Part shown: in pieces, positions 16,422 to 18,177 of the stretch | Layout of the letters: every line of letters starts with the position of its first letter | Numbering within the stretch: the stretch's first letter is position 1 | NCBI GenBank assembly: GCA_022843045.1 | Contig: JALHOJ010000012.1 | Coordinates: 1 to 64,000, forward strand | DNA length: 64,000 nucleotides | From: Phycisphaerales bacterium | GTDB taxonomy: Bacteria > Planctomycetota > Phycisphaerae > Phycisphaerales > UBA1924 | Direction of reading: 5' to 3' | Made by a program: the position numbers and the translations under genes | The notes under the pieces: generated by a model | What the model saw: only the letters and a program-made list of their open reading frames with translations | What the model was told of the DNA's origin: nothing | The model's database searches: none

Positions 16422-16443
16422 TGTGGAAAACTCGAACCGCGAC

Positions 16444-16471
16444 TTGCACACGCTCGTAGATTTTGTACACT
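16444..16471 (+). promoter_or_regulatory. Promoter of the structured small transcript
   Basis: TTGCAC (16444-16449) and TACACT (16466-16471) with a 16-nt spacer. Transcription would begin near 16478 and could end at the terminator 16836-16870. Confidence 0.5.
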
Positions 16472-16475
16472 ATGA

Positions 16476-16667
16476 GTGTCCGCATGCTGCTTGCGACGCC
16501 GCCTCCTGGCCAAGCGACCCGCAAGCAAGGCGGACCCCGCGGTGCGCACGGTGCGCCCGCGAGCGTGCCCGGCGACGGCCGGGAGAGAAGCCCGGCGGAA
16601 GCCCAAGGACAGCGGGCTTGGCGGCTGGGTCAGGTATGGCCTCTTCAGCAAGGAGGTGATCCAGTGA
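16476..16667 (+). CDS. Possible small basic protein (63 residues)
   Basis: Open frame from GTG 16476 to TGA 16667 within the small transcription unit. Codon-position GC content is compatible with coding (high third position). The product is very Arg/Lys-rich with four Cys (CCLRRRLLAKRPASK at the start) and ends with GLGGWVRYGLFSKEVIQ. The last codons contain the strong Shine-Dalgarno of the next ORF, and the stop overlaps that ORF's GTG (GTGA). The start codon is only 4 nt from the predicted -10 element, so it would have to be leaderless. I do not recognise a family, and it may be only an open frame within an RNA. Confidence 0.3.
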   Translation: MSACCLRRRLLAKRPASKADPAVRTVRPRACPATAGREARRKPKDSGLGGWVRYGLFSKEVIQ

Positions 16668-16717
16668 ATCAATTGAACTGTCAGCACACATCGTCGGAGC
16701 GTTCTCCGGATGTGTGA
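16664..16717 (+). CDS. 17-codon ORF behind a perfect anti-16S Shine-Dalgarno
   Basis: GTG 16664 follows AAGGAGG at 7-nt spacing, and the complementarity to the 16S tail runs on to the start codon (16650-16663). The peptide would be MNQLNCQHTSSERSPDV. Its second half is encoded by the strong hairpin 16685-16716, so translating ribosomes would open that hairpin, as in a leader peptide. The GTGA overlap with the preceding frame suggests coupling. No homologue is recognised. Confidence 0.35.
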   Translation: MNQLNCQHTSSERSPDV

Positions 16718-16835
16718 ATGGGGCCAGGCCGAGAGCCTGGCTCGACGGAGCAGGCCCCGCGCGTGACGAGCAAGCAGTCACGAGCGTGCGGCTGGCCCCA
16801 GTCCTACGGCACAGTCTTTGGACTTGAAACCGTCG

Positions 16836-16870
16836 CAGGCCGCCTCCGCAGGGGCGGCCTGTGCTTTTTT
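16836..16870 (+). terminator. Rho-independent terminator of the small transcript
   Basis: Perfect 9-bp GC-rich stem CAGGCCGCC / GGCGGCCTG (16836-16844 with 16853-16861) with an 8-nt loop, ending in TTTTTT at 16865-16870. Confidence 0.9.
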
Positions 16871-16950
16871 GGGGGAGTGCGAAAGTGCGAAAGTGTGGGG
16901 AGAAGCACAGCGATATACCGAGATGCGCGATCGAACGAAGCGCAGCTTTC

Positions 16951-16982
16951 CATCGCTTCATCGCTTCATCGCTTCATCGCTC
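16951..16982. repeat. ATCGCTTC tandem repeat at the end of the YkgJ-like gene
   Basis: Four near-identical 8-nt units (CATCGCTT in phase) in tandem. They overlap the last codons and stop of the minus-strand gene, which ends DEAMKR. A related ATCGCTTC/GAAGCGAT arrangement is found at 40565-40623. Confidence 0.6.
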
Positions 16983-17563
16983 ACCACCCACGCCAGCATC
17001 GCGCGCCACTCGCCGTAGCGGTAGCTGATCCCGTGCCGATCGTGCAGAGCGCGAATCCGCTCGAGCGCGCGCTCAGTGAGTTCGTGCTGCCAGTCCTGCG
17101 CGCTCGCATCACAGAAATACACCCGGCATCCCAGCGGCTTGATCGTGTGGGCTCCGCAGAGGTTGCGCTCCAGGAACGGGCAGTCGCCGCGAGCCTTTGC
17201 CGCGTCGATCTGCGTGAGGGACAAAGCCCCTTGTGGGGGATGGAGTTGGGGGAGGGGTTGGGGTGGGCGGGTTCCCCGTGCGTCGCTCGCGACTTCGCGC
17301 TCGTGTTCATTCCGCCGCGCAACCGTGTACGCCGCTTCCAAGCCCGTCACGTACAACAGATGCCCAGTCTTCGCAAAGTTGCAGCATCGCCCGCTGGCCC
17401 AGCAGGAAGGGCCGCGGGATGTGATTTCGCGAGCGACTTCGGCGTAGATTGATTCGAGCTCGGTCTTGATCACGGGCGAGTTGACGGCGTCAAGCCACGC
17501 GCGAGCGATCGCGGCATCGTCGGAGGTTCCCAACTGCCTGGAGTCTTCGCCAGCCACGTTCAC
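16958..17563 (-). CDS. YkgJ-family Cys-cluster protein
   Basis: Predicted metal-binding protein of 201 residues. The Cys pattern CWASGRCCNF near the N-terminal third and CPFLERNLCGAHTIKPLGCRVYFC further on is that of the YkgJ (zinc- or iron-chelating, UPF0153-like) family, whose function is not settled. GTG 17563 overlaps the stop of the upstream cyclodeaminase-like gene (GTGA), indicating translational coupling. The C-terminal codons lie in an 8-nt tandem repeat, so the exact end may have drifted. Confidence 0.75.
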   Translation of the reverse strand: MNVAGEDSRQLGTSDDAAIARAWLDAVNSPVIKTELESIYAEVAREITSRGPSCWASGRCCNFAKTGHLLYVTGLEAAYTVARRNEHEREVASDARGTRPPQPLPQLHPPQGALSLTQIDAAKARGDCPFLERNLCGAHTIKPLGCRVYFCDASAQDWQHELTERALERIRALHDRHGISYRYGEWRAMLAWVVSDEAMKR

Positions 17564-18177
17564 GCCTCGCCATTCGTGTGACAGGCTCGCTCCACCTCGC
17601 GAGCCAGCGTGATCGCACGCTCCACGAGCGTGTGCCCCTCGTGCATCGCCGCGTCGCGCTGCCTTGCGTCGGCGAGGAACGGGGCGTTGACGACCACGTT
17701 CCAGTGTCCGCACCGGGTGCAGGCTTCGGCGAGCACCGCCGCGATGGCGAGGTCGCTGCGCAAATGGTGGTTGGACTTGCCGCACAGGTCCTTGAGCAGT
17801 CGCAGCGTCTCGACGCCCACCGCCGCGATGGCGAGCGGGACGCGGACCGATGCTTCTTGAGCCGCGGGCAATTCGCGCCGACGCGGATCGGTCTCCGGCA
17901 AGCGCGAGAGTTCATTGACCAGTCCGTACGCCGCGGCGTCTTCGTCTGCGAGTTCGAGCAGCATGCCGCGGGCGCGTCCGAGGCGATGGGCCGCGTCGTC
18001 GAGCAGGGCTTGATGCGCCGCGAGGGACTTCTTGCCCAGCGAGTAGTTCACAACCATGTGCGCGAGGGCGGCGCCGAGTGCGCCTGCGGCAGCGGCGATC
18101 GCTCCGCCGCCCGGCGTGGGTTGCTTGGCGGCGGTCTGGTCGAGGAAGGCGCGGAGCGTGAGGTCGGCGAAGGCCAT
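17560..18177 (-). CDS. Cyclodeaminase/cyclohydrolase family protein (FTCD C-terminal type)
   Basis: All-helical 205-residue protein matching the formiminotransferase-cyclodeaminase C-terminal family. It shows AFLDQTAAKQPTPGGGAIAA at the start, then ALGAALAHMVVNYSLGKK and a late VVVNAPFLADARQRD segment. Known members convert 5-formimino-tetrahydrofolate to methenyl-tetrahydrofolate, and stand-alone members such as FchA act in one-carbon metabolism. The PTPGGGS-type folate-binding turn is present as PTPGGGA. Coupled by GTGA overlap to the YkgJ-like gene. Confidence 0.88.
   Translation of the reverse strand: MAFADLTLRAFLDQTAAKQPTPGGGAIAAAAGALGAALAHMVVNYSLGKKSLAAHQALLDDAAHRLGRARGMLLELADEDAAAYGLVNELSRLPETDPRRRELPAAQEASVRVPLAIAAVGVETLRLLKDLCGKSNHHLRSDLAIAAVLAEACTRCGHWNVVVNAPFLADARQRDAAMHEGHTLVERAITLAREVERACHTNGEA

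Follow-up and report, generated by a model that had tools for sequence, protein, structure and literature searches.

The locus and its transcription unit

The window is the whole 64,000-nucleotide stretch of DNA that was analysed, taken from a genome of 4.08 Mb in 147 contigs (G000) that has contigs labelled Phycisphaerales among its close relatives. On its plus strand, a small transcription unit is flanked on the 5' side by a divergent gene for an ABC-transporter ATPase and on the 3' side by a convergent gene (16958-17785, minus strand), for which no Pfam match was found. The unit contains the following features.

16444-16471, plus strand: promoter, TTGCAC (16444-16449), a 16-nt spacer and TACACT (16466-16471)
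16478-16870, plus strand: predicted small RNA transcript of ~390 nt, its start taken from the promoter and its end from the terminator (folding z -3.5)
16558-16687, plus strand: match to covariance model R1 (56.9 bits, E 4.6e-14)
16568-16583, plus strand: helix H2 of the 5' domain, CCCGGC-GACG-GCCGGG with a GACG tetraloop; 98.6% of cells paired, compensatory changes in 8/8 pairs
16591-16629, plus strand: helix H3, 16591-16596 with 16624-16629 and an inner part, 16599-16604 with 16614-16619, from the consensus fold and R1
16584-16644, plus strand: helix H4, which closes off the 5' domain shortly 5' of the Shine-Dalgarno (SD), from a separate strand-pairing test in relatives
16650-16664, plus strand: extended SD, 15 nt complementary to the 3' end of the genome's own 16S rRNA, including the G of the start codon
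16664-16717, plus strand: micro-ORF of 17 codons, GTG...TGA, read in the window as VNQLNCQHTSSERSPDV; a counterpart is present in 130/135 loci
16685-16716, plus strand: 13-bp hairpin inside the ORF, a lineage-specific insert
16720-16758, plus strand: hairpin H5, GGGGCC 16720-16725 with GGCCCC 16753-16758 and an inner GCTC-GACG-GAGC (16740-16751); 95.9% of cells paired
16802-16810, plus strand: TCCTACGGC, complementary without mismatch to the 5' strand of helix 45 of the genome's own 16S rRNA (GCCGTAGGA)
16836-16870, plus strand: intrinsic terminator, CAGGCCGCC/GGCGGCCTG and then TGCTTTTTT, read in the window sequence

Both the promoter-like pair and the strong terminator that an earlier sequence-only reading had placed at the ends of this unit are present, and the position of the former is conserved. 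The promoter of the window sits 206 nt 5' of the SD; a promoter-like pair was found 5' of the RNA in 66 of 118 relatives, compared with 5.1 ± 2.2 in shuffles, and most of these pairs cluster 200-222 nt before the SD. Two perfect 8-bp tandem repeats, AGTGCGAA (x2.5, 16876-16895) and CATCGCTT (x3.9, 16951-16981), fall in the gap that separates the convergent gene from the terminator of the RNA.

The same reading had named a leader among its options, and a short ORF with its stop in a hairpin and a terminator behind it does resemble an attenuator. However, the next gene after the terminator is convergent, the upstream gene is divergent, and the genes flanking the RNA differ between relatives when neighbours are compared across loci. 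No general synteny with one target gene was found across relatives, nor the conserved co-directional downstream gene expected of an attenuator or leader peptide; a threonine-dehydratase-like gene 3' of the RNA is common to only 6 loci. Because its neighbours vary in this way, the RNA is stand-alone and not a leader, and a function as leader or attenuator of a downstream gene is highly improbable.

Distribution and consensus structure of the RNA

A DNA search revealed a conserved neighbourhood in relatives. Over half of the genomes of the same family contain the 17-mer AAGGAGGTGATCCAGTG, at roughly one copy each; the reversed pattern, used as a control, was never found. A covariance model, R1, was built from an alignment of 27 relatives (A1) from which the window sequence had been left out. 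Matches to R1 were present in 136 of 163 same-family genomes, spanning 67 of 74 genera and essentially in single copy, with about 1 in 6 of the genomes in this family lacking a match. Further matches were found in 129 of 397 genomes sampled from the class and in 48 of 294 sampled from the phylum; class and phylum members were found at E 1e-6 to 1e-34, with a lowest value of 2e-19 for families outside the class. When R1 was run against 35 alphaproteobacterial genomes holding extended-SD micro-ORFs, 33 had no match at E 0.01; of the other two, one had a match with E 0.004 at its extended-SD locus and the other a match with E 7e-4. Weak class-level matches near E 1e-3 are to be weighed against this alphaproteobacterial rate (2 of 35 at E 0.01). 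The RNA is a folded gene conserved across Planctomycetota.

A consensus fold was calculated from A1 with RNAalifold, and 31 of its pairs were counted. Across these pairs 95.2% of cells are paired, and compensatory changes occur in 21 of the 31, amounting to 80 compensatory cells against 22 expected. The covariation score was 0.383 compared with 0.191 for shuffled alignments, none of 500 shuffles scoring as high, and sliding the pair partners by 1-3 columns abolished the signal. The sequence-only reading had staked its case on a covariance search in relatives, and there the covarying helices, the in-frame micro-ORF, the promoter position and the single copy all proved to be conserved. A chance match to the 16S tail was ruled out by conservation throughout family, class and phylum together with covariation, and its probability is virtually negligible.

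In relatives, shuffling the partners of the H4 strands weakens the duplex from -7.45 to -5.96 kcal/mol (sd 0.33, p <= 1e-4); in the window, as read from the sequence, this helix has shrunk to AGAG (16584-16587) with CUCU (16641-16644). The modelled consensus structure is shown to leave the extended SD unpaired 5' of the micro-ORF. Sequestration of the SD by the preceding pyrimidine strand was also considered and is not supported, with a pairing energy of -6.1 that barely exceeds the -5.7 of the reversed control. Of 118 loci in relatives, 36 contain GAGAACC in the 5' domain, ~90-280 nt upstream of the SD, and 1 has it in the 3' part; the helix 45 loop region in the 16S rRNA of the source genome has this very sequence.

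An upstream 63-codon frame with a stop overlapping the GTG had also been described, and both are present in the window. The frame coincides, however, with the structured 5' domain of the RNA; its open run varies from 5 to >100 codons among relatives, in which the overlapping stop is not constant either. Translational coupling to this frame was rejected because neither its length nor the overlapping stop is conserved.

Complementarity to 16S rRNA and the micro-ORF

The exact 14-nt match to the complement of the 16S tail claimed for 16650-16663 (AAGGAGGTGATCCA) was confirmed with zero mismatches. The complementary strand of the genome's own 16S gene (G000:C17) reads aaaggaggtgatccagccgcag, and the G of the GTG stretches the match to 15 nt. 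With 15 Watson-Crick pairs and perhaps a U-G at the end, this match is borderline under a strict 16-nt rule; several relatives carry AAAGGAGGTGATCCAG, which reaches 16 nt. The 13-mer GGATCACCTCCTT and the 11-mer AAGGAGGTGAT are each confined to two sites in the 4.08-Mb genome, the RNA locus and the 16S gene. The predicted duplex between the extended SD and the 16S tail has an energy of -30.6 kcal/mol, compared with -10.1 for AAGGAGG alone. Among 142 collected loci, a set that includes two stray matches, AAGGAGGTGATCC is kept in 91, and the variants AAGGAGGTGGTCC (20 loci) and AAGGAGGTGATTC (8 loci) exchange Watson-Crick for G-U pairs, by which pairing is kept. Some phylum members retain the ORF and the helices with a shorter match, AAGGAGGTGATGC, and an ATG, so full-length pairing is not essential everywhere.

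The GTG at 16664 and the 17-codon ORF that it opens, both noted earlier, are present, and an ORF of 9-19 codons (mostly 11-13) follows directly after the SD in the 130 of 135 distinct planctomycete loci that have a counterpart. Of the collected loci, 134 start with GTG and 125 have a 1-nt gap between ATCC and the start. The preference for GTG would be explained by its G continuing the complementarity to 16S rRNA, if that complementarity matters. Farther out in the class and phylum the ORF is still present, with ATG or TTG as its start codon and the spacing shifted. The 5' strand of H5 corresponds in relatives to the final codons of the ORF; the distance from the start to this strand is divisible by three in 66 of the 70 loci where it could be measured, and ORF length changes mostly in threes. 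The stop codon falls within a hairpin at 97% of loci, compared with 53% for random positions, and in most relatives it lies inside H5; the ORF of the window ends before H5. The 13-bp hairpin within this ORF does exist, but a regulatory role for it is not supported; congeners G001 and G003 lack it and have ORFs of 12-13 codons, a third (G002) has a different insert, and the hairpin was rejected as a conserved element.

A microprotein had been among the options raised from the sequence, and, given the conserved in-frame micro-ORF, a small ribosome-binding transcript that encodes one is supported. If the RNA were simply a messenger for a functional micropeptide, the role of the extended SD would be just to ensure strong translation, and the structure would protect the transcript. 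The peptide typically follows the pattern D-C-T-K/R-G-L-R, its indels are in frame, and among the single-base codon changes between close pairs a share of 0.38 is synonymous, against an expected 0.25. Because the last codons also form a hairpin strand, H5 constraining part of the ORF, this synonymous excess is only modest evidence for peptide function. Against a micropeptide there is also the high divergence of its sequence, which spans 6-23 codons and reads, for example, VNQLNCQHTSSERSPDV in the window and VTKCDCTKGLRG elsewhere, and pairing through the start codon would be expected to slow rather than raise initiation. We regard this explanation as unlikely.

The segment complementary to 16S helix 45 bears on a further alternative. 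CCTACGG is found 3' of H5 in 37 of 116 relatives and is the commonest 7-mer there after the strand of H5 itself, whereas nearly all other 7-mers complementary to the 16S end and lying outside the CCTACGG stretch occur in 0-2 of the 116 loci. The shorter CTACGG is present in ~40% of loci, in some relatives falls within the ORF, and often finds a partner for a hairpin within the RNA, 5' or 3' of itself. It is for this last reason that pairing of TCCTACGGC in trans with helix 45 is offered only as a hypothesis. On such pairing, the RNA could be a ribosome-sequestering or hibernation decoy that titrates 30S subunits through both the tail and helix 45, with the ORF serving mainly to release the ribosome. 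The closed domain that presents the 16S complement, the enrichment of CCTACGG in the 3' part and the little constraint on the peptide would all be consistent with a decoy, but the ORF is conserved in frame, start and stop throughout the phylum, beyond what a passive decoy would need, and the CTACGG segment is missing from the majority of loci and often occupied internally. A decoy of this kind is possible but doubtful. Equally tentative is the broader proposal that a phylum-wide structured RNA acts on the 30S subunit itself by pairing with the 16S tail and helix 45, either as a sequesterer or as a sensor of correctly matured 16S 3' ends, sequestering and sensing having both been options of the sequence-only reading; if true, such an RNA would be to the 30S subunit what 6S RNA is to RNA polymerase.

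Proposed mechanism and comparison with known systems

We consider it fairly probable that this ~390-nt structured small mRNA works like rreB and rreR, its exposed extended SD capturing 30S subunits, initiation being slow and the RNA reporting or buffering 30S subunits. The closed 5' domain (H2-H4) would present the extended SD single-stranded, free to pair along the entire 16S tail as far as the G of the GTG and including it, by which 30S subunits may be captured very tightly; from its fold and complementarity, the RNA probably grips the small ribosomal subunit. Since this pairing occupies the spacer together with the initial base of the start codon, the duplex would have to melt in part before the initiator tRNA could sit on the GTG, and initiation is expected to be slow. 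Those ribosomes that manage to initiate would make a peptide of 9-19 residues (17 in the window), normally terminating within H5; for the window, with its inserted hairpin, termination would come at the base of that hairpin. The most likely consequence would be that 30S occupancy sets the abundance and stability of the RNA, which may in this way buffer or report free, mature 30S subunits. A general ribosome-linked function is indicated because the RNA is present in single copy across much of the phylum and holds the longest 16S-tail match of the genome. The purpose of the RNA, be it ribosome buffering, sensing of 16S maturation or a micropeptide, is hereby made testable.

The reading from sequence had recognised no known RNA family, which holds at the gathering thresholds of Rfam 15, where no family matches the RNA of the window; tRNA, tmRNA and known Rfam RNAs were rejected by searches. 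Below threshold, there is a likeness to CC2171 (RF01867), a Caulobacter sRNA whose consensus contains AAAGGAGGUGAUCCAGUG: the window scores 24.7 bits against a 75-bit gathering threshold, and the planctomycete relatives gave no match to this family. Loci from Brevundimonas, Bosea and Roseiarcus found by the 17-mer score above the CC2171 gathering threshold. At the extended-SD loci of the 35 alphaproteobacterial genomes, no R1 match had an E value below 0.001, and homology with CC2171 or rreR by RNA model was rejected, given the 33 genomes without a match at E 0.01.

Among alphaproteobacterial loci with the same 17-mer, ORFs are mostly of 14-25 codons, including ones of 14 and 18; the 14-aa (VSYTKRCHLAGIAR) and 18-aa (VSRVILERGVGT...) products have the lengths of rreB and rreR. 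Directly upstream of the rreR-type RNA of Rhodobacterales, 36 loci have a membrane-protein gene that is, by eye, like a queuosine precursor transporter (YhhQ-like); in L063, for example, it lies at -929 to -65 from the SD. AAGGAGGTGATCCAGTG was also found in loci from Krumholzibacteriia (L083, L097), Lujinxingiaceae (L107), Myxococcales (L120), Deltaproteobacteria (L154) and Acidobacteria (L095). Since this 17-mer precedes short ORFs in the loci read there, extended-SD micro-ORFs may, as these sequences suggest, occur in further phyla. Loci L126 (SAR92) and L161 (Cellvibrionales) contain AAAGGAGGTGATCCAGTG, possibly in a non-stop version of such an RNA: a terminator-like hairpin with a T-run comes ~25-35 nt later, and no in-frame stop intervenes.

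The little-studied rreB is the small mRNA with an extended SD in Bradyrhizobiaceae and rreR that in Rhodobacter/Roseobacter, and to our knowledge such mRNAs have so far been reported from Alphaproteobacteria only. Hahn and co-workers reportedly found in 2017 that Bradyrhizobium rreB co-sediments with 30S subunits, that it is weakly translated owing to its extended SD and GTG, and that replacing its start codon makes it more stable. Like rreB and rreR, the planctomycete RNA is a stand-alone small transcript with an SD complementary to approximately the whole 16S tail, a complementarity that is continued by the G of the GTG start; at the ~16 nt or more typical of these mRNAs, its match is borderline. 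A GTG-started ORF follows directly after the SD, its 17 codons in the window falling within ~14-25; the ORFs of rreB and rreR have 14-18 codons, whereas those of the planctomycete relatives mostly have 11-13. By eye, VNQLNCQHTSSERSPDV has no similarity to the 14-aa and 18-aa peptides. The stop often lies in a hairpin in both, as seen in 71% of non-planctomycete loci compared with 48% in the control. Unlike rreB and rreR, the planctomycete RNA belongs to a different phylum and has a covarying 5' domain of ~170 nt. By sequence or structure it stands outside rreB, rreR and CC2171, yet would work like an extended-SD small mRNA, which would widen this principle from Alphaproteobacteria to Planctomycetota with a covarying architecture.
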